A DNA stretch of 38,749 nt from Nocardiopsis listeri (GTDB taxonomy: Bacteria; Actinomycetota; Actinomycetes; Streptosporangiales; Streptosporangiaceae), in contig NZ_DYZD01000300.1 of NCBI RefSeq assembly GCF_020741345.1, positions 1 through 38,749 of the forward strand, given 5' to 3'. Below the pieces are notes generated by a model. The model was not told the DNA's origin, ran no database searches, and saw nothing but the letters and a program-made list of their open reading frames with translations. Every line of letters begins with the position of its first letter. The first letter of the stretch is position 1. This document shows, in pieces, positions 10,060 through 38,708 of this stretch. The translations under genes were made by a program, and so were the position numbers.

Positions 10060-10110
10060 GGTTGCAACCTTACGGGATATCGGTGACACGGGACGATTCG
10101 CCCGCCCCGG

Positions 10111-11100
10111 TCAGGTGATGACCCGCTGGACCTCCAGCATGCGTTCCACCGTGCGGAACCCGAAGAGGTCGTTGACCGCACGCATCGGGGTGTTGGCGGG
10201 ATCCACCCAGGTACGGACCCACTTCGCCTCGGGAACGTCCCTGGAGAGCGCTTGGAGGTTGCGCCGCTTGAGCGCCACACCCAACCTGTTGCCCCGATGG
10301 GCGCGCATCACCAACGTGTCGTCCTGGTAGACCTCACCCTCTCCTTCCGTCGGGACCATCATCAGGCTGTACCCGGACCACTCCCCCGACCCGGCCCGCG
10401 CGACGGAGACGATGGTGGTGTACCCCTGGTCGGCACGGCGCAGGTCCTCCTTCCGGATCCGGTCGGCGTCCCACACCTGCGGTTCGGTGTCGAGCCCGCC
10501 CGTGGGCACGTCACGCTCCATCGCGGTGCGCATCCGCGCGTAGTCCTCCAGCAGTTCCTCCGGACAAGGACCCGTCCAGGTGAGCGTTCGGTGTTCACCG
10601 GTCACCTCGGGCAGGGCGGCCAACCGTTGCTCCGGGACGGGAAGGTCCAGCACCTGGTAGTCCTCCTCGTGCACGACGTCGAAGCCATGGGACCGGGCGA
10701 ACAGGGCACCCGGCCAAGCGTCCGGGTCGCACCCCCCGGGGACGTAGACCTCACCGGTCGCGGTGGTGCGCCCCTCCTCTTCCATGACCTTCGTGGCCAG
10801 TTCGAGCAGTCGTCCGCCCAGGCCCCTGCCCCGGTGTTCCGGGACCACCGAGACGTCCACCTCGGCCAGGTGCCGGTTCTCCAGGTCCGGAAGGTCGATG
10901 AGGAGGGTGCCCACGGTGCGTTCGTCCTCCACCGCGGCGTACAACCTGTGGTGCCGGTCCTCGCGCGGGGCGACCATCCCCTTGAGGTCGGGAAAGCCCA
11001 TAACGGCGGCCTCCGCGCGGCCGGCCGTCGCCCCCTCGACCAGGGCCGTGTGCCAGGCACGCAGGGCGGACTCGTCCGTGGCGTCGATCGGGTTGATCAT
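10111..11100 (-). CDS. Tandem GNAT-domain acetyltransferase
   Basis: A 329-aa protein with two GNAT folds, as in mycothiol synthase (MshD) and related double-GNAT enzymes. The N-terminal domain carries an acetyl-CoA loop RGRGLGGRLLELA (motif A). The C-terminal domain has AHRGNRLGVALKRRNLQAL and the typical N-x-x-M-x-x-V-N-x-x-x-G-F-R end (NTPMRAVNDLFGF). It is the last gene of the accessory operon, 33 bases after the MFS gene. It could acetylate the cluster product or a toxic intermediate (self-resistance or tailoring) (inference). The substrate is unknown. ATG at 11100. Confidence 0.85.
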   Translation of the reverse strand: MINPIDATDESALRAWHTALVEGATAGRAEAAVMGFPDLKGMVAPREDRHHRLYAAVEDERTVGTLLIDLPDLENRHLAEVDVSVVPEHRGRGLGGRLLELATKVMEEEGRTTATGEVYVPGGCDPDAWPGALFARSHGFDVVHEEDYQVLDLPVPEQRLAALPEVTGEHRTLTWTGPCPEELLEDYARMRTAMERDVPTGGLDTEPQVWDADRIRKEDLRRADQGYTTIVSVARAGSGEWSGYSLMMVPTEGEGEVYQDDTLVMRAHRGNRLGVALKRRNLQALSRDVPEAKWVRTWVDPANTPMRAVNDLFGFRTVERMLEVQRVIT

Positions 11101-11133
11101 CGCGGTGTACTCATTCCTTCGTGATCGGTCGGT

Positions 11134-12441
11134 TCAGGCGGGTTCGGAAGCCTTGCCGGCTCCCTCCGCGACGGGTTCACCGAAGCCGCGCAACCGCGCA
11201 GAGGTCATGGCCAGTAGCGCCGCGGCCACCCCCAGCAGGCCCGCGAAGACCAGGAAGAGGGCGGTGGCGCCGGTCTTTTCCTCACCCAGCAAGGTCACCA
11301 TGGTGTCCGCGCCGGTATCGGTGAACAGCGGTGTCAGTACGTAGTCCACGACCGGGCCGGCGATGAGCAGGCCCAGGGGCAGGGACGACTGCGCGAGGAG
11401 GCGACGGGCCCCGAAGACGCGGCCCTGTTGCCGCTCCGGCACGTGGGACTGCCAGATCGCCTGGTAGGCGGAGTTGACCGCAGGAAGCACGGCACCGGCC
11501 ACCAGGGAGGAGGCGATCCACAGCCACGGGGTCCAGGACAGACCCAGCAACAGGGGTCCGGCGACCGAACCGATCGCCATGCCGCCCAGCACGAGGGTCA
11601 TCCGTTGGAACCGGTCGCCCACCGCACTGACGACCAGGGCTCCCAGCACTCCGCCCGCGCCTCCGGCCGCCAGGACCACCCCCAGGAGAGCCTGGTCGTC
11701 CCCGCTGCGCAACATGATCAACGGGGTGGTCAGGGCGTAGGAGATCGCCCCGGAGAAGTTGAGCACGAAGAACAGCAGGAGTAGGAGCACCAGGGGCCGG
11801 CTGCGGAAGATGTAGGTGAACCCGAACAGCAGGTCCGCCCGGAACACCACCCACGAACGCCGCTGCTCTCCCTCGGCCACGGCCGGTCGAGGGGTGCGGA
11901 CCATCAGCAGGACCAGCGCGGCGAAGACGAAGGTCACCAGGTCCAGGAGCAGGATCATCGACAGGTCGGTCAGCGCCAGCAGGACACCCCCCAGGGCGGG
12001 GGCGAGGATCTCCGACCCGGGCGCGGCCAGACTGATCATTCCGTTGGCGCGAACCAGCCGTTCCTCCACCACCAGGAGTGGGACCAACGCCATGTAGGCC
12101 ACCAGGTGCAGGGACTCCATCACCCCTTCGAACACGGCGATGACGTACAGGTGCCAGATCTCCAGGTTCCCCGTGAGATAGAGCGTCAGAACGGTGGACG
12201 TGGTGATGGCGAGGGCGCCGTCACCGACCAGGACGGCCACCCGTGGCCCGATGCGGTCCACGAGTGCACCGGCGATCGGGGCCATGGCCAGGCCGGGGGC
12301 CAGGGAGAGCAGTGTGAGCATCGCGAACAGGGTCGCCGAACCGGATTCCGCCCACACCCACAGGGTGATGGCGAACCAGGCCGTGCCCGAGCCGATCGCC
12401 GACATGAGCTGGGTCGACCACACCAGGGAGAAACGTCGCAT
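11134..12441 (-). CDS. MFS efflux transporter
   Basis: A 435-aa major facilitator protein with about 12 hydrophobic segments, beginning FSLVWSTQLMSAIGSGTAWFAI. It carries the DRIGPR loop motif between helices 2 and 3 and a second DRFQR loop in the C-terminal half. It resembles the MacB/TetV-like drug-efflux branch (MFS_3). The start is 6 bases after the 2OG oxygenase stop and 33 bases precede the GNAT gene, so it belongs to the accessory operon and is the only exporter there. No peptidase-containing ABC transporter is present, so any leader removal must be done by another protein. Confidence 0.88.
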   Translation of the reverse strand: MRRFSLVWSTQLMSAIGSGTAWFAITLWVWAESGSATLFAMLTLLSLAPGLAMAPIAGALVDRIGPRVAVLVGDGALAITTSTVLTLYLTGNLEIWHLYVIAVFEGVMESLHLVAYMALVPLLVVEERLVRANGMISLAAPGSEILAPALGGVLLALTDLSMILLLDLVTFVFAALVLLMVRTPRPAVAEGEQRRSWVVFRADLLFGFTYIFRSRPLVLLLLLFFVLNFSGAISYALTTPLIMLRSGDDQALLGVVLAAGGAGGVLGALVVSAVGDRFQRMTLVLGGMAIGSVAGPLLLGLSWTPWLWIASSLVAGAVLPAVNSAYQAIWQSHVPERQQGRVFGARRLLAQSSLPLGLLIAGPVVDYVLTPLFTDTGADTMVTLLGEEKTGATALFLVFAGLLGVAAALLAMTSARLRGFGEPVAEGAGKASEPA

Positions 12442-12447
12442 ACCGCC

Positions 12448-13002
12448 CTAGACCGCCTCGCCGGAGAGGTCGTCGCCACGATGCGGCAACGGCGGGATCG
12501 TCACGAGGGTGTAGCGCTCCTCGCAGGCCACGGGATCGACCCAGTGCCAGGCCTGGGGGTCGTGCTCGACGAAGGTGCCGGCACGGTCGGGGACGAACAC
12601 CATGGTCTCGGGGTCGTGCTGGGCGTTGAGCCCATCCGTCCCCGAAGTGGTGAGCATGTACAGGCCCTGGCGCAGTGAGTCCCGGTGCGGCAGGACGTAG
12701 TCTCCCCGGTCGTACCTGTTGACCTGAACGTAGTAGTCCCTCTTCGGCGTCCCCTCGGGGGTGATGGCGGCGAAGATCGCCGCCCTGAGGTCCTCGGGCA
12801 TCCAGGCGGACTGGAGGACGTGATAGCGGTCGTCGTCCTCGTACTCGGAGTCCCGGTAGGGGTCGAAGGGGTCTGTTCCGGCCGGCCGGGGCGGGGCCGC
12901 GGGGTCGGGGTGATCGGCGAACAGGTGTCGGTAGCGGCGGGCGAGGGAGACGATCCCCGCGCAGTCGGCCACCACGTCCGGAACCACGGTCAACGGCCTC
13001 AT
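12448..13002 (-). CDS. 2-oxoglutarate/Fe(II)-dependent oxygenase-like protein
   Basis: A 184-aa compact double-stranded beta-helix protein. The facial triad is visible as His106-x-Asp108 (LPHRDS) and His153 (WHWVDPV), with Arg163 (ERYTLV) placed to bind 2-oxoglutarate. The preceding strand is YYVQVNRYDRGDYV. Such small oxygenases hydroxylate or desaturate amino acids or peptides. The ATG at 13002 overlaps the stop of the paralogous upstream gene (ATGA), so the two are probably made in equal amounts. Within the cluster it would oxidise the peptide or an amino-acid unit (inference). Confidence 0.8.
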   Translation of the reverse strand: MRPLTVVPDVVADCAGIVSLARRYRHLFADHPDPAAPPRPAGTDPFDPYRDSEYEDDDRYHVLQSAWMPEDLRAAIFAAITPEGTPKRDYYVQVNRYDRGDYVLPHRDSLRQGLYMLTTSGTDGLNAQHDPETMVFVPDRAGTFVEHDPQAWHWVDPVACEERYTLVTIPPLPHRGDDLSGEAV

Positions 13003-13466
13003 CGCACTCCCATCACAACGCTGTACCTGGGCGCACCTCGCACGGGACTCACCCACGCCCACGACCCCGGCGGCAGGAGCAGACCCGTGCCCACCCGATC
13101 CAGGACACGCTCGAAGCGCCCTCCGATCCAGGCGGTGACCCCGTCGACCTCGGAGTCGCTCAGGGGGAAGGTCAGCTCCCAGTCACCGGCCACGGTGTCG
13201 CCCACCCGACGGGGCAGGGTGAAATCGCCGACGTCGTGACGTTGCACCCGAACCGTCGCCGGGTCGGGTGTGCCGGGCAGTGACGAGGCGACGGCGACGA
13301 GGCGATCACGCAGACCCGGCTGGTCGACGGCCAGGTCGGTGTACCGGGACCGGGCCCCGGTGAGGTCCTGCGGTGCCGTGACCGGTAGACCTTCCAGCGC
13401 CGCTCTCACCTCCTGCGGCAGGGTGTGGGCGACGGGTACCTCCGTCGGCCCTTCGGTGAGGATCAT
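12999..13466 (-). CDS. Degenerate 2OG-oxygenase paralogue lacking iron ligands
   Basis: A 155-aa protein whose C-terminal half aligns by eye with its downstream neighbour: RVQRHDVGDFTLPRRV corresponds to QVNRYDRGDYVLPHRD, and WAWVSP...RYSVV to WHWVDP...RYTLV. In these positions the ligands are replaced: Arg86 for His106, Val88 for Asp108 and Ala137 for His153, while Arg147 is kept. It therefore cannot bind Fe(II) in the usual way. It may be a structural or substrate-binding partner of the active oxygenase (inference). ATG at 13466 with AAGGAG upstream; the stop overlaps the next start by four bases. Confidence 0.75.
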   Translation of the reverse strand: MILTEGPTEVPVAHTLPQEVRAALEGLPVTAPQDLTGARSRYTDLAVDQPGLRDRLVAVASSLPGTPDPATVRVQRHDVGDFTLPRRVGDTVAGDWELTFPLSDSEVDGVTAWIGGRFERVLDRVGTGLLLPPGSWAWVSPVRGAPRYSVVMGVR

Positions 13467-13477
13467 CGGTTTCTCCT

Positions 13478-14986
13478 TCACTCCAGATCGGTCAGGTCGA
13501 CGGGGACGGCGTCGGGGTCGGAACGGCGCAGGGAATCGATGTCGGGGTGGGCCGCCACCTCCATCAACAGCTCCACCACCGCCGCGCGCCCCCACCCGGC
13601 CCGTGCGCCCATCGCCACCTTGAACAGGCCCCGCCCTTCCTTGAGGGAGGGGATGATGCACTCGAAGCGGTGGGCGCGGAAACCGAAGCTCGACCCGTGC
13701 GAGAAGGGCAGTCCTCGACGACGCGCCTGGGAACGCAACACACCGAGCAACAGTCCGTGGTGCTCCAGCGTGTCCTCACGCAGGTGGCACACGACGAACG
13801 GAGCCTGCGCCCAAGGGGCGGCGGGGCCCTCGGCCAGCGAGGGATGGGCGATGCGGGTGAAGAGTCGTCCCGGCCCCGCCAGGTCGGCGAGCACTCGCGC
13901 GGTCAGCGCGTTGTTGCGCAGGACCGCGAGCGCGTGGTCACGGGCGGCCGCCCGATCCAGGACGAACGGGGCGCTGAGCACCGAGAGGGCTTCCAGGGAC
14001 AGACCGGATCCCACGACGGTGCGCATCTTGCGCAGGTACGTGGCCAGATCGGCGGCGGGGGGAAGTGCCGGATCGGACCGGCGTGCGTACAGGGAGGCCA
14101 CCCCCAGGTTGCCGAGTTCGAGCCCTCGCTGGTCGAGTTTGAGCCCGGAGCGGACCTCGACGACCAGGACGCCCGGGTCGCCGACGGCCTCCACGAACCG
14201 TTCCCTCGGCCACACCGGCGAGACGAGGGTGGAGTCCACCACGACCAGGCCGGGACGGCTCCCCCGCCGCCCCCGCCAGGCGCCCAGCAGCGCCGGCAGG
14301 TCGAGTGCGTCCAGTTCCCACTCGTAGCGCACGGGTTCGATGAACAGCACGTCCACCTCACCTGTGAGGAGACAGGACCGCAGTTCCTCTTGGGTGTCGG
14401 CGCGTCGACAGCGCAGGCCGTCGTCGGAGACCAGGTCGAAAAGGACTCCGGTCTCGTAGTAGGCACCCCACATCAGCAGGTTCAAAGGGCGGTCGGCGGT
14501 CTGCCGGATCAGACTCCGGTAGCACTGGAGGAGCCCGGCGATGGACGCCATACCGCTGGAGTACACGACGTGCGCCACCTCGTGGTGATCGAGCTCGGCG
14601 TCCTGGGCCGCGAGCCGTTCCTCCAGGGAGTGGCATTCGATGTTGCGTTCGTAGCTGTGCGTGGAGGGAGGCCCGAAGGGCAACGTCATCGGGGTTCCCA
14701 GGGGCGGTGACTTGTAGCGCGGATCCGTGAATCCGTGGGCGTGGCGGATCCACATCACCCGCAGGTCCGCCTCCGCCCGGTCCATCTCCGCCTCTGCCTC
14801 GGGTCCCTGCCGTCCGGTCAGGGAGGTGACCCGTTCACGCCACCCTCGGATCGACTCGGTCGGATTCCCCTCCGCGTCCGGGGGAAAGAGCGCGTCGGCC
14901 AGCCCGAGCAGGGCGGTGACGTCGTCGTGTGCGGTCATCGGGGCCGCGCCCGTGCGTCCCTCGGTCGCGTCCATGGTCCCGGTCAT
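13478..14986 (-). CDS. Fold-type I PLP-dependent enzyme (Cys/Met-metabolism-like)
   Basis: A 502-aa protein with the layout of the cystathionine-synthase/lyase group. After about 130 N-terminal residues comes a PLP-phosphate loop VVYSSGMASI (141-150), then a stacking aromatic segment (WGAYYET), an IEP strand, Asp251 in VVVDSTL to pair with the PLP nitrogen, and the Schiff-base Lys283 in RSGLKLDQ. A C-terminal small domain follows. Reactions in this family are beta/gamma eliminations or replacements; the actual substrate is unknown. The ATG at 14986 overlaps the upstream stop (ATGA), and the protein is longer than the 380-400 aa typical of the group. It is in the middle of the accessory operon. 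Confidence 0.75.
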   Translation of the reverse strand: MTGTMDATEGRTGAAPMTAHDDVTALLGLADALFPPDAEGNPTESIRGWRERVTSLTGRQGPEAEAEMDRAEADLRVMWIRHAHGFTDPRYKSPPLGTPMTLPFGPPSTHSYERNIECHSLEERLAAQDAELDHHEVAHVVYSSGMASIAGLLQCYRSLIRQTADRPLNLLMWGAYYETGVLFDLVSDDGLRCRRADTQEELRSCLLTGEVDVLFIEPVRYEWELDALDLPALLGAWRGRRGSRPGLVVVDSTLVSPVWPRERFVEAVGDPGVLVVEVRSGLKLDQRGLELGNLGVASLYARRSDPALPPAADLATYLRKMRTVVGSGLSLEALSVLSAPFVLDRAAARDHALAVLRNNALTARVLADLAGPGRLFTRIAHPSLAEGPAAPWAQAPFVVCHLREDTLEHHGLLLGVLRSQARRRGLPFSHGSSFGFRAHRFECIIPSLKEGRGLFKVAMGARAGWGRAAVVELLMEVAAHPDIDSLRRSDPDAVPVDLTDLE

Positions 14987-16104
14987 GTGTTCCGCCCTCC
15001 TTCGGCGCGCACGACCTCCTGATGCGGCGGGCCCCATCCGTGCAGGTCGCGCATCATGCTCGCGGTGTAGGCCCCGGACGCGTTGAACACCAGACGGTCC
15101 CCGGGCCGAGGGTCGGACAGCGACACCTCCTCGGCCAACACGTCGTTCTCGTAGCAGGTCACCCCACCGATCAGGTGGGGACGCCCCGGCCCGTCCCGTT
15201 CGGGCAGGCGCGCCACCACCCTCGGGCTCCCCCAGGTGAACAGGTTCCATCCGGAGGCGTCGGCCACGGCGTATCCACGGCCGTCGGGGAACCCATCGAC
15301 GGAGCGCAGGCGGACCACGAGGTAGCCGGCCAGCGCGGTCGTCAACATGCCGGGTTCCAGGAGCACGCGCACGGGAGCACCGGCGAGACGTTCGGCGACG
15401 CGCTTCCAGGCCCGCCGGGCCTGCTGCCGGTCGGTGTACAGCGTGGTCAGACCGCCGCCCAGGTTGAGTTCGCGCACTTGTGGGAAGGCGCGCAGGCAGG
15501 TGGTCAGGGCCGACGTCAGCAGGTCGGCCCGGTCGGGTGTCCCGATCTCGCCGCTGTGCACGTGCAGTCGTACGACGCGTGTGTCGGTCCCGGCCAGGAG
15601 CCGGTGGAGTTCGGGGTCGGCGGGATCGACACCGAACCTGCTCGCGCGGCGCCCGGAGGTCCGGTCCTGTTCGGCCATGGGCACGCGCAGACGCAGTCCG
15701 ATCTCCCGTGGCGAGGGTCGGGTCTGCAGGAGTGAGCGCAGCTGGTCGACGCCATCGACGTCGACCAAGGCCCCCTGCTCGGCCATGGCGGCGAGCCGGT
15801 CGCCGGTCAGTCCGGGCCCGGTGACGCTGATCGGGTCCATGCCGGCTTCCCGGGCCGCGCGGTACTCGGCGGGTGAGGCGACGTCCGCGCCCACGCCGAG
15901 GTCGGCCAGGTGGCGCAGCAACGGCGGGAAGCGGTTGGCCTTGAGGGCGAACAGCAGGACGCTCTTCGGGAACGGAGCGGTGTCCTCGCGCAGTTCCCGG
16001 ACCGTGGCCGTGACCGCGTCCAGGTCGTACAGGAGTGCGGGGGTGGTGACGGTCCGGGCGGACCGCAGGATCGCCTCGCCGGGTGTGGAGGAGCCCATCG
16101 TCAC
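14983..16104 (-). CDS. Alanine-racemase-fold PLP decarboxylase-like protein (DapDC/ODC type), copy 1
   Basis: A 373-aa fold-type III PLP protein. The N-terminal TIM barrel carries the Schiff-base Lys55 in FALKANRFP, followed by GVGADVASPAEY, SRFGVDP, HVHSGE, a glycine-rich LNLGGGL and EPG. The C-terminal beta domain holds GVTCYENDVL and GAYT. In ornithine and diaminopimelate decarboxylases the corresponding C-(D/E)SxD segment contributes Cys and Asp across the dimer interface. Here the Cys is kept and the context is changed to CYEND. The start is a GTG at 16104 overlapping the arginase-like stop (GTGA), or an ATG two codons in. A paralogue is encoded at 17345-18547. Confidence 0.82.
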   Translation of the reverse strand: MTMGSSTPGEAILRSARTVTTPALLYDLDAVTATVRELREDTAPFPKSVLLFALKANRFPPLLRHLADLGVGADVASPAEYRAAREAGMDPISVTGPGLTGDRLAAMAEQGALVDVDGVDQLRSLLQTRPSPREIGLRLRVPMAEQDRTSGRRASRFGVDPADPELHRLLAGTDTRVVRLHVHSGEIGTPDRADLLTSALTTCLRAFPQVRELNLGGGLTTLYTDRQQARRAWKRVAERLAGAPVRVLLEPGMLTTALAGYLVVRLRSVDGFPDGRGYAVADASGWNLFTWGSPRVVARLPERDGPGRPHLIGGVTCYENDVLAEEVSLSDPRPGDRLVFNASGAYTASMMRDLHGWGPPHQEVVRAEGGRNT

Positions 16105-17348
16105 GCACCCCCTTCCCGATGGCCGATGGCCGAGTCCAGGGCCCGCAACAGCAGGTCGGCGACGATCAGCCCGTCCGTCTCCCCCTCATGGGGCAGGAAC
16201 TCGACCACGTCGATCCCGACGATGCGTCGGGCCGAGCACAGGTCGGTCAACAACCCGACCAGTTCGGCGTGGGTGAAACCTCCGGGCAGGGGCGTGCCCG
16301 TGGCGGAGAGCACCGAGGGGTCCAGCGCGTCCACGTCGATGGTCAGGTGGTAGGGCAGGGAGTCGGGGAGTTCGGCGAGGATCTCGCCGAGCGGGGTGCT
16401 CAGCGCCGACCTTCCGGGCCAGCGGCGCAGTGTGTCGTCCGGCCGTGCGGGCGGATCCTCCAGTTGGCGCAGGCCGAACTGGGCGAGGCGGACCACCCGA
16501 GGATCGCCTACCACCCAGTCCATGACGTTTCCGTGGTGGCAGTGGAGTTCGGCGTCGTCGTGGCGGGGACGGGCGTAGTCGCCGTGGGCGTCGATGTGCA
16601 GGACGCCGAGATCGCCGTGGACCTCGGCCAGACCTCGGACGATGGGCAACGTGACGGAGTGGTCGCCGCCCAGGATCACCGGGAGGCGGCCGTGCCCGCT
16701 GAGGCGGCCCACCACGTTCTCCAGCACCGACCAGGTGGGCCCGGCGGAACGGTGCACGTTGGTGGTCACGTCGCCGATGTCCGCCAGACGTACTCCGGCC
16801 AACACACGTCTCCCGGTCACCGGGTCCACGGCACCGGACGGGCCGTCGACGGTGTCCCGGTAGCGGAACAGGGCGCCTCCGGTACGTCGTAACTGGGCGG
16901 GACCGAACCTGCTGCCGGGCCGGTGCGAGGCCCCCAGGTCGTAGGGCATCCCGAGGAAGACGACATCGCAGGACTCACCGCGCAGTGCCTCGGCCAGGGT
17001 GAGGACCGGGGCGCCGAACATGCCGCCTCGCCCGGCGGGGGTGGGGACTCCGTCCGGGTCGTGTCGTCTTATGAGGCCTCGTTCTCCCAGGGCCGTGACC
17101 AGGGCGCGCAGGTGGGATCGGTCGGTTCCTTCGCCTTGGGCAAGGGTGGCCAGGGTGCGGGGAACGGCGAAGGCGGCGAGCAGGTCGGCGGTGACCGGAC
17201 CGACCTCCAGTTCCCACCCCTCACGGGTGTGCCACACGGTGGTGCGACCGTCCTGCGAGCCCCGCAGGGCCAGCAGGGGTTCGGTGGCCAAGAGGGTGTC
17301 GTCGGTGATCGGAGGGGCCTGCATCGCCCCGGGGCCGGAGTCGTTCAC
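16101..17348 (-). CDS. Agmatinase/arginase-family ureohydrolase with N-terminal RRE/PqqD-like domain
   Basis: A 415-aa two-domain protein. Residues about 115-410 form a ureohydrolase with every manganese ligand in place: GGDH (His230), DAHGD (Asp253, His255, Asp257) and the DVDALDP motif (Asp338, Asp340), plus GIDVVEF (Glu383). The family hydrolyses guanidino groups to amine and urea. Residues about 15-97 are not part of known arginases. They form a strand-rich start (TTVWHTREGWELEVG) and then a winged-helix pattern (PVTADLLAAF...HLRALVTALGERGLIRR) like the PqqD/RiPP-recognition fold. This suggests leader-guided action on a peptide arginine. GTG start at 17348, overlapping the upstream stop. 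The domain junction uses the rare codons ATA-AGA (residues 93-94). Confidence 0.82.
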   Translation of the reverse strand: MNDSGPGAMQAPPITDDTLLATEPLLALRGSQDGRTTVWHTREGWELEVGPVTADLLAAFAVPRTLATLAQGEGTDRSHLRALVTALGERGLIRRHDPDGVPTPAGRGGMFGAPVLTLAEALRGESCDVVFLGMPYDLGASHRPGSRFGPAQLRRTGGALFRYRDTVDGPSGAVDPVTGRRVLAGVRLADIGDVTTNVHRSAGPTWSVLENVVGRLSGHGRLPVILGGDHSVTLPIVRGLAEVHGDLGVLHIDAHGDYARPRHDDAELHCHHGNVMDWVVGDPRVVRLAQFGLRQLEDPPARPDDTLRRWPGRSALSTPLGEILAELPDSLPYHLTIDVDALDPSVLSATGTPLPGGFTHAELVGLLTDLCSARRIVGIDVVEFLPHEGETDGLIVADLLLRALDSAIGHREGGA

Positions 17349-18547
17349 GCGGTGGCCCCCGCGGTGGTGAGCGCGGCTTCGGCGTCGATCATGTGCTCAC
17401 CGTCGAAGAGGTGTTCACGTGGCGGGGGGATGCGGTTGAACCACCGGGCGTTGGTGATGGTGTAGGCGCCGGTCGCGGTGATGACCAGGCGGTCGCCCGC
17501 ACGGCAGTGGGGCACCTCCAGGGTGGTGCGAGCGGCGGTGGGGGTGGCGCCGAAGAAGTCGTTCTCGTAGAGGGTGCAGCCTGCCAGGAGGGCGGGAGCG
17601 CCGGGCCGACGTCCGTCCAGGGACAGGACCTGGGGCCGGTTGTGCCAGGGGGCGAGGTTCCAGGCGGAGGCGTCCAGGGTCACGACGCGGGTGTCGAGGA
17701 CCGGATGGTGCTCCTCCACCGACCGCACCCTGGTGAGGAGATACCCGTAGGGGGTGAGCAGCGCACCTCCGGGCTCGAAGCGCAGGGAGATCGAGCGACC
17801 GGTACGTTCGCGCCAGCCCGTGACGAGCGCGGCGACGTCGCCGAACGCGTCGATGGCGCTCGCCCGATCCCGGTAGAGGTGGAAGAACCCGCCTCCGAGG
17901 TCGATGGTGTGCACCTCGGGCAGGTGCTCGGCGACGGTGAGGAGGTAGCGGGTCTTGTAACGCAGGGAGTCCGGGGTCATCTGGCCGGTGTGGACGTGCA
18001 GCCGGGTGGGCCTCAGCCGATGTCGTTCGAGCACCCGTGTGAGTTCGGGGTCGGCGGGGCGGACTCCGAAGCGGCTGTCTCCGGCGAAGGTCGCCGTGTC
18101 CTCCAGGGCCTCGGGGAGGTCCACTCGCACACGTATCCCCACCTCGTCCCCGGGGCGATGCCGTCCGTAGGAGTCGAGTTGATCGAGGGAATCACAGTCC
18201 AGGGTGATCCCTCGCGCGGCCAGGGCGTCGAAGTCGGTTTCGGTGAAAACGGGGCCCGTCGCGGAGATCTCGGCGAAGCCGGCGTTCACGGCCAGGTCGA
18301 GTTCTCCGGGGGAGGCGACGTCGCAGCCGAGTCCGAGCGCGGCCATCTCCCCGAGCACGGCGGGGGTGTGGCACGCCTTGAGTGCCAGGTTGAGTCCTGC
18401 GTCGGGGATGAGGGCGACGTCGTGGCGCATCGCCTCCACACCCGCACGAATACCGGGCAGGTCGTAGATCAGCGCGGGGGTGTCGAGATCCTCGGCGAGC
18501 GCGAAGAGGCGTTCGCTCGGTGGGGTGAACAGGGGGGCTGGTGGCAT
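17345..18547 (-). CDS. Alanine-racemase-fold PLP decarboxylase-like protein, copy 2
   Basis: A 400-aa paralogue of the protein at 14983-16104, with Lys57 (NLALKACH) as Schiff-base lysine, CDVASPGEL, SRFGVRPADPEL, HVHTGQM, IDLGGGFF, EPGG and the C-terminal GCTLYENDFF and GAYT. The residue matching the catalytic Cys of ornithine/diaminopimelate decarboxylase is Leu here, whereas copy 1 keeps Cys. These enzymes build active sites from two chains, so the copies could form a heterodimer with one full site (inference). ATG at 18547 with GAAGGA upstream; the frame continues upstream but only as an off-frame shadow of the precursor gene. It is the first enzyme gene after the putative precursor. Confidence 0.82.
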   Translation of the reverse strand: MPPAPLFTPPSERLFALAEDLDTPALIYDLPGIRAGVEAMRHDVALIPDAGLNLALKACHTPAVLGEMAALGLGCDVASPGELDLAVNAGFAEISATGPVFTETDFDALAARGITLDCDSLDQLDSYGRHRPGDEVGIRVRVDLPEALEDTATFAGDSRFGVRPADPELTRVLERHRLRPTRLHVHTGQMTPDSLRYKTRYLLTVAEHLPEVHTIDLGGGFFHLYRDRASAIDAFGDVAALVTGWRERTGRSISLRFEPGGALLTPYGYLLTRVRSVEEHHPVLDTRVVTLDASAWNLAPWHNRPQVLSLDGRRPGAPALLAGCTLYENDFFGATPTAARTTLEVPHCRAGDRLVITATGAYTITNARWFNRIPPPREHLFDGEHMIDAEAALTTAGATA

Positions 18548-18574
18548 CGACGATCCTTCACCGGGGATAGGACC

Positions 18575-18602
18575 CGTCGGGCCGGTGGCGGCCGGCCCGA
18601 CG
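18575..18602 (-). promoter_or_regulatory. Strong hairpin between precursor gene and first enzyme gene
   Basis: A perfect 11-bp inverted repeat CGTCGGGCCGG / CCGGCCCGACG with a 6-base loop. It lies 33 bases after the precursor stop and about 27 bases before the next start. There is no T-run on the minus strand. Its position fits an attenuator or mRNA-end stabiliser that would keep the short precursor transcript more abundant than the enzyme mRNA, as in many RiPP operons. Confidence 0.6.
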
Positions 18603-18635
18603 GACGAGGTTCCCAGGGACTCGGAGAAGCTCGGA

Positions 18636-18818
18636 CTAGTTGGCGCGGGGGCGGCTGCCGCCGAGGGTGCCGAGGTCCATGCTGATCTCGCGGACGTCTG
18701 CACCGCCGATCTCACGGATGGACTCGTCGATGACGGCCTGTTCGCTCCAGGCCTCGCCGGTGAAGTTGGCGTCGAACTCCTTTTCGAGGTCGGCCAGCTT
18801 CGTCTGCAAAGTGGGCAT
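18636..18818 (-). CDS. Putative RiPP precursor peptide (60 aa)
   Basis: A 60-aa acidic peptide of unknown family, first gene of the accessory operon. The N-terminal 50 residues are helical and rich in Asp/Glu (LQTKLADLEKEFDANF, then AVIDESIREIGGADV), like a leader. The C-terminus is MDLGTLGG followed by SRPRAN, so a double-Gly at 53-54 precedes a six-residue tail with Arg56 and Arg58. It has no Cys and a single Trp24. AAAGGA lies about 7 bases before the ATG. The RRE-like domain fused to the arginase and the modifying enzymes downstream make a ribosomal precursor the best reading. A small non-substrate partner protein is the alternative. The core boundary is inferred only from the Gly-Gly. 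Confidence 0.72.
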   Translation of the reverse strand: MPTLQTKLADLEKEFDANFTGEAWSEQAVIDESIREIGGADVREISMDLGTLGGSRPRAN

Positions 18819-19149
18819 AGTTCGTCCTTTCGCCTAGAAGGGTGGATTCGCGGACGTAACCACCTCATGGCGCCTTACCGGTGGGCGGCGTCGAACGCAG
18901 TGCCCACTGTAAGAATCGACTTTTCCCAGGACAACACGGTGACCAATTGCGGCCACAATGAAACCCAGACCCAGTTGAAAAAACCATGAACAGAATTCAT
19001 GAATAAGTGCGACATAGCACAGAAAAGCATTATGGCTTTCCCGCCGCCTTATCCCTCGAAACCGCCACGAACAAAGTCAGGGGGTAATAAGGGGCAGGGT
19101 CCAGGGGGAGCGAACGGTGTCCTGGCCGCCCGGGAGGCGTCCGTGTGCC
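18819..19149. other. Upstream region of the RiPP-like operon
   Basis: 331 bases between the phosphatase stop and the precursor start, less GC-rich than its surroundings (18,900-19,090). It contains the candidate promoter at 18906-18934 and an inverted repeat CATGAA-N5-TTCATG (18985-19001) that could be a regulator site. No regulator gene lies nearby. It is also one edge of the insertion into the conserved phosphatase-DUF3090 pair. No convincing gene is seen. Confidence 0.5.
18906..18934 (-). promoter_or_regulatory. Candidate sigma-70 type promoter of the RiPP-like operon
   Basis: Reading the minus strand, TTGTCC (18934-18929) and TACAGT (18911-18906) are separated by 17 bases. Each matches the -35/-10 consensus at four of six positions. 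The predicted start lies near 18899, about 80 bases before the precursor ATG. Confidence 0.4.
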
Positions 19150-38625: not shown

Positions 38626-38634
38626 ACTGTTCTG

Positions 38635-38708
38635 TCGGGACGGCGGGATTTGAACCCACGACCCCTTGACCCCCAGTCAAGTGCGCTGCCAAACTGCGCT
38701 ACGTCCCG
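38635..38708 (-). tRNA. tRNA-Pro (anticodon GGG)
   Basis: 74 bases. The acceptor stem CGGGACG (5') pairs with CGTCCCG (3') and the discriminator is A. The D arm is GCGC..GCGC, the anticodon arm CTTGA/TCAAG encloses a 7-base loop with GGG at positions 34-36, and the T arm holds GTTCAAATC. CCA is not encoded. The GGG anticodon reads CCC/CCU proline codons. tRNA-Pro genes are known targets of actinomycete integrative elements such as pSAM2. Confidence 0.93.

Follow-up and report, generated by a model that had tools for sequence, protein, structure and literature searches.

What does a gene cluster make when it places an arginase, three pyridoxal 5'-phosphate (PLP) proteins and a pair of oxygenase-like proteins beside a 60-residue acidic peptide? 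Such a cluster lies in contig NZ_DYZD01000300.1 of Nocardiopsis listeri (assembly GCF_020741345.1), whose 38,749 nucleotides are the window analyzed here. Its nine minus-strand genes, designated A to I, span 10111-18818, with 4-base overlaps at B/C, C/D, D/E and F/G and intergenic gaps of 6-88 bases elsewhere. An earlier reading of the window (the sequence-only reading) had proposed that these genes form a cluster for a ribosomally synthesized and post-translationally modified peptide (RiPP); it located the nine genes correctly and mostly identified them correctly. Our analysis supports the RiPP assignment well, and an arginase acting on the core peptide is very probable, while the PLP chemistry is what we infer. 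Our full proposal, that the product is a RiPP of an undescribed type in which arginine is converted to ornithine (Orn) and then aminopropylated, is held tentatively, at slightly under an even chance.

The RiPP assignment begins with gene A. Five arginase loci were found in total, and conservation of a short precursor alongside the enzymes, chosen beforehand as the test of the RiPP proposal, was found in all five. Each precursor has an (M/L)DL element followed by GGSRPR and two variable final residues, and Arg56 and Arg58 of A are the presumed targets of modification. In a plasmid of Mammaliicoccus sciuri the precursor open reading frame (ORF), MTENIRNATPSISLDLDLMGGSRPRLK, lies upstream of B behind a strong ribosome-binding site and is missing from the gene table; it is reduced to 27 residues and still retains GGSRPR. 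A role for A as a LysW-like carrier was rejected, as the zinc motif is absent and the conserved end is GGSRPR.

Protein C carries about 125 N-terminal residues beyond its PF00491 arginase domain. The suggestion that these residues form a RiPP recognition element (RRE) was supported by comparison with a profile of 25 PqqD-family sequences from related genomes: across 58 collinear columns hhalign scored the match at 29.5, while 100 column shuffles reached no more than 15.4 and 38 tiles of other cluster proteins no more than 14.9. A low-confidence structure model of C (pLDDT 42, unusable as a whole) has strands followed by helices, the order expected for a recognition domain. A search of the PDB with this domain gave no PqqD match, and a comparison with the two ThiF N-termini of the E. 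faecalis and L. lactis loci described below gave no signal. We take this N-terminal domain to be an RRE. All six PF00491 metal ligands (GGDH, DAHxD, DxD) are present at every locus, and C, which is closest to agmatinases and guanidinobutyrase, is predicted to be a peptide arginase acting on peptidyl Arg. Its earlier comparison to OspR was rejected, as domain searches matched C to PF00491 only and OspR belongs to PF12640. OspR of the landornamide pathway resembles C in performing Arg-to-Orn maturation by PLP-free ureohydrolase chemistry; it differs in Pfam family and in its precursors, and a fused recognition domain has not been reported for it. The better counterpart is KgrD of the enteropeptin pathway, a PF00491 arginase that likewise produces Orn in a ribosomal peptide (PMC12703449). 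KgrD, however, needs a thiomorpholine made by a radical S-adenosylmethionine (SAM) enzyme, and N-methylation follows, whereas here the RRE is fused to C and PLP enzymes follow.

The cluster is confirmed to be more than a chance assemblage. In two other Nocardiopsis the flanking DNA (89-94% identical) is continuous from window position 10104 to 19127-19129, and this clean empty site defines a 9.0-kb unit of 10105-19126 containing exactly the nine genes; the upper boundary, set at 18934 by the sequence-only reading, thus moves to near 19126. Nocardiopsis coralli HNM0947 carries the nine genes collinearly at the same genomic place with 78-92% identity, and the ratio of nonsynonymous to synonymous substitution rates (dN/dS) is 0.14-0.33 across all genes, including the precursor. 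Two genomes of a second genus of the family have the order A, D, F, G, B, C, E plus a divergent H, with 59-61% identity to the window in B and 44% in E. The M. sciuri plasmid carries B, C, D and E with ABC-exporter genes and a GNAT acetyltransferase; F and G are absent, which makes this pair dispensable. Genes B-C-D-E are translationally coupled in both Nocardiopsis and M. sciuri, and the precursor accompanies them in two phyla (in actinobacteria and on the staphylococcal plasmid).

All three PLP proteins expected from the sequence-only reading are present; they do not necessarily perform three steps, as B and D are probably one decarboxylase pair. Domain searches place both among the PLP decarboxylases of the LysA/ornithine-decarboxylase fold (ornithine or diaminopimelate decarboxylase-like), and they resemble LysA and the carboxynorspermidine decarboxylase NspC. 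The PLP lysine is invariant in 11 aligned sequences, and the Glu of EPG and the decarboxylase Tyr are retained. The catalytic Cys that each subunit lends its partner is present in D and replaced by Leu in B at every locus, the pattern that a B/D heterodimer would show, making it plausible that the two form a single heterodimeric decarboxylase. Protein E matched no Pfam family and scored under the NCBIfam cut-offs, while profile searches and Foldseek matched it to cystathionine/methionine gamma-lyases; its structure model is of moderate confidence (pLDDT 62) and was used for fold class only. When E was aligned to a member of the cystathionine-gamma-synthase family encoded in the same genome, the YxR, SGM and DxT motifs, the PLP Lys and the SLG-type loop matched. 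We provisionally assign E as a distant cystathionine-gamma-synthase-like enzyme. Its carboxylate site has Lys in the arginase clade and Arg in two lactic-acid-bacterial relatives.

These relatives are found on Enterococcus faecalis plasmid LR962333 (L026:4200-12544) and Lactococcus lactis plasmid NZ_CP053672 (L027:4300-11186), where genes for an E-like enzyme and for a fold-III decarboxylase lie near those for a ThiF adenylyltransferase, a major facilitator superfamily (MFS) transporter and an acetyltransferase. No arginase was found in either locus, and the persistence of the pair without it indicates that the E-like enzyme and the decarboxylase are likely one module. A review remarks on decarboxylase and PLP-enzyme genes in the vicinity of ThiF genes of this kind (PMC12250964). 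The candidate precursors are MNEEGKTTEMTFEDLFVEIISVERT and MEENDIITENIDFEEIFSDLEMRVRT, both with a C-terminal RT, and the two loci are possibly microcin-C-like, with the E-like enzyme taking the role of MccD. The locus in L. lactis appears decayed, its decarboxylase and MFS genes being split. In E. faecalis the locus also includes an oligoendopeptidase F-like (M3) gene (L026:9239-10855), a possible leader peptidase, and a gene for a 392-residue protein that matched no Pfam or NCBIfam family (L026:5489-6667), located between those for ThiF and the E-like enzyme; L. lactis has a split pair of homologue-like size in its place.

A precedent for joining such enzymes comes from nucleoside antibiotics. 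In muraymycin biosynthesis an amine is alkylated with a 3-amino-3-carboxypropyl group by the PLP enzyme Mur24, the PLP decarboxylase Mur23 trims this group to aminopropyl, and the iron/2-oxoglutarate (2OG) enzyme Cpz10 of the caprazamycin pathway hydroxylates the same intermediate (PMC10491745, PMC9814697). A fold-I PLP enzyme, a PLP decarboxylase and an iron/2OG hydroxylase thus act there on one amine-linked group, as we propose here, with the difference that the substrate is a nucleoside rather than a peptide; the fit to Mur24, Mur23 and Cpz10 is the basis for the roles given to E, B/D and G. Decarboxylation of an amine-linked group is further favored by the resemblance of B and D to NspC, also a fold-III enzyme, whose substrate bears a 3-amino-3-carboxypropyl amine; NspC differs in acting on a free polyamine as a single homodimer. 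Microcin C provides a ribosomal peptide whose aminopropyl group is made by MccD and the PLP decarboxylase domain of MccE, and which shares GNAT protection and an MFS exporter with the present system. MccD is, however, a SAM methyltransferase-fold enzyme unlike E, and domain searches found no ThiF/MccB adenylyltransferase, as expected of the microcin C family, in the unit; it occurs only in the distant E. faecalis and L. lactis loci.

In the pathway that we propose, the PqqD-like domain of C would bind the A leader, and the arginase domain would turn one or both GGSRPR arginines into Orn, a step that is well founded. Further modification of this Orn is plausible by analogy. E may then convert SAM or an activated homoserine into a PLP-bound vinylglycine species and use it to alkylate the Orn delta-amine with a 3-amino-3-carboxypropyl group. 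B and D, probably as a heterodimer, would decarboxylate this group to give N-delta-(3-aminopropyl)ornithine; this side chain would resemble spermidine or hypusine, with a predicted shift of +15.04 Da relative to Arg. To our knowledge, hypusine is its nearest known protein side chain. In actinobacteria, G may hydroxylate the core or the side chain, aided by its dead paralogue F; a host peptidase could then remove the leader, perhaps at GG, and the product would be exported via H or an ABC transporter, with the GNAT acetylating a free amine as protection for the producer. The aminopropylation is a specific hypothesis in which every chemical step is argued from analogy, and we place it just below an even chance. 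Its detailed form, in which the RRE-fused arginase unmasks a side-chain amine on which gamma-replacement by one PLP enzyme and decarboxylation by a PLP heterodimer yield a hypusine-like polyamine side chain, is a little more doubtful again. As in the sequence-only reading, no RiPP class matching this enzyme set emerged, and no RiPP combining PLP enzymes with an arginase is described in the literature searched, in which subscription journals are poorly covered.

Several observations weigh against this proposal. The recognition domain of C is not called by Pfam or NCBIfam. Mur24 is 1-aminocyclopropane-1-carboxylate-synthase-like while E is cystathionine-gamma-synthase-like, and E has Lys where cystathionine gamma-synthase has its carboxylate-site Arg. 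B and D have Tyr in place of the LysA Glu next to the catalytic Cys, and two decarboxylase genes for a single step require the heterodimer assumption. The unit also contains no peptidase.

In one alternative, the same RiPP and arginase step would be followed by PLP enzymes acting directly on the Orn delta-amine, by oxidation, ring closure or elimination, with nothing added. The arginase would yield the primary amine that PLP enzymes require, and some of the substrate residues found in true decarboxylases are missing from B and D; yet both proteins retain the PLP lysine, the Glu of EPG and the decarboxylase Tyr, and the basic residue at the carboxylate-binding position of E points to a free amino acid as substrate. 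We consider this alternative unlikely. More doubtful still is the reading that the three PLP proteins of a RiPP cluster produce a free small molecule, either coupled to the peptide afterwards or working alongside it: relatives of these proteins (LysA, NspC and cystathionine gamma-synthase) do use free amino acids, but the arginase loci have no ligase and the translational coupling of B-C-D-E in two distant hosts argues against a separate product. Least probable of all is a non-RiPP pathway of polyamine type that would start from free arginine or agmatine and use A as a small protein with a regulatory or carrier role. The agmatinase and guanidinobutyrase likeness of C would favor this reading, but it is at odds with the PqqD-like domain of C, the GGSRPR kept in the shortened M. 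sciuri precursor, and the presence in the second genus of an aKG-HExxH peptide hydroxylase relative.

The remaining proteins fit the aminopropylation proposal as tailoring, export and protection functions. The dead and live 2OG pair of the sequence-only reading was upheld: G has a weak match to a 2OG oxygenase family and an intact HxD...H iron triad, and F, which can be aligned with G and has no Pfam match, has lost the Asp and distal His in 4/4 genomes and evolves under purifying selection despite this loss. The double GNAT described for I stands in part, as domain searches identify a GNAT and the second half is indicated by weak similarity to the GNAT from M. sciuri. A GNAT gene is present in all five arginase loci, and by BLAST these genes are of three non-orthologous kinds, which fits repeated recruitment for self-protection by N-acetylation, and I probably protects the producer. 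The coordinates of all features are collected in Table 1.

Table 1. Features of the nine-gene unit in the N. listeri window, with the evidence for each.
Feature	Position	Strand	Evidence
Discrete unit	10105..19126	none	missing from two other Nocardiopsis, flanks joined at 10104/19127-19129; same location in N. coralli
I, GNAT acetyltransferase	10111..11100	-	domain search; inside discrete unit
H, MFS exporter	11134..12441	-	domain search
G, 2OG/Fe(II) oxygenase-like	12448..13002	-	HxD...H iron triad
F, G paralogue without iron ligands	12999..13466	-	4/4 genomes; purifying selection
E, cystathionine-gamma-synthase-like fold-I PLP enzyme	13478..14986	-	PLP Lys283; profile and Foldseek
D, LysA-like fold-III PLP protein	14983..16104	-	PLP Lys and Cys retained in 5/5
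C, PqqD-like domain fused to PF00491 arginase	16101..17348	-	domain search; metal ligands retained in 5/5
PqqD-like recognition domain, C residues 17-105	17034..17300	-	hhalign against 25 PqqD sequences
B, LysA-like fold-III PLP protein	17345..18547	-	PLP Lys retained; catalytic Cys replaced by Leu in 5/5
A, precursor peptide, 60 aa	18636..18818	-	acidic leader, C-terminal GGSRPRAN; dN/dS 0.16-0.33
GGSRPR motif, residues 53-58 of A	18645..18662	-	identical in 5/5 precursors

Searches with E indicate that the cluster is rare: 4 of 343 genomes of the family were positive, and no homologue other than the window genome's own was found among 395 genomes of the class or 396 of the phylum. Three plasmids matched E, and viral contigs searched with E and with C of M. 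sciuri gave no match. The second genus shows further genes around the cluster. A gene for an APH-type phosphotransferase, a candidate tailoring or self-resistance kinase, lies immediately upstream of the precursor (L021:2802-3770, with a counterpart gene in L022). Past the MFS gene lies the aKG-HExxH peptide beta-hydroxylase relative (L073:11279-12337, minus strand; TIGR04267, E-value 5e-7, below cut-off). A conserved ORF of 83-98 residues also follows the MFS gene (L022:1334-1627 and L021:1137-1385, minus strand) and has a weak PqqD-profile match (hhalign 43%); it is perhaps a stand-alone recognition protein. In the window, a tRNA-Pro (ggg) gene at 38634-38708, close to the window end, does not adjoin the insertion site.

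If the proposal is correct, the cluster would represent a new RiPP class and a new logic of side-chain building, in which an amine is unmasked, extended and decarboxylated, and its enzymes could serve to equip peptides of choice with polyamine side chains. GGSRPR together with B-C-D-E provides a simple handle for searching for such clusters. The constant neighborhood of a GNAT suggests that the product is antibacterial and that its free amine is important. A mobile trait is suggested by the clean empty site and by the occurrence of the cluster in two phyla, in one case on a plasmid.
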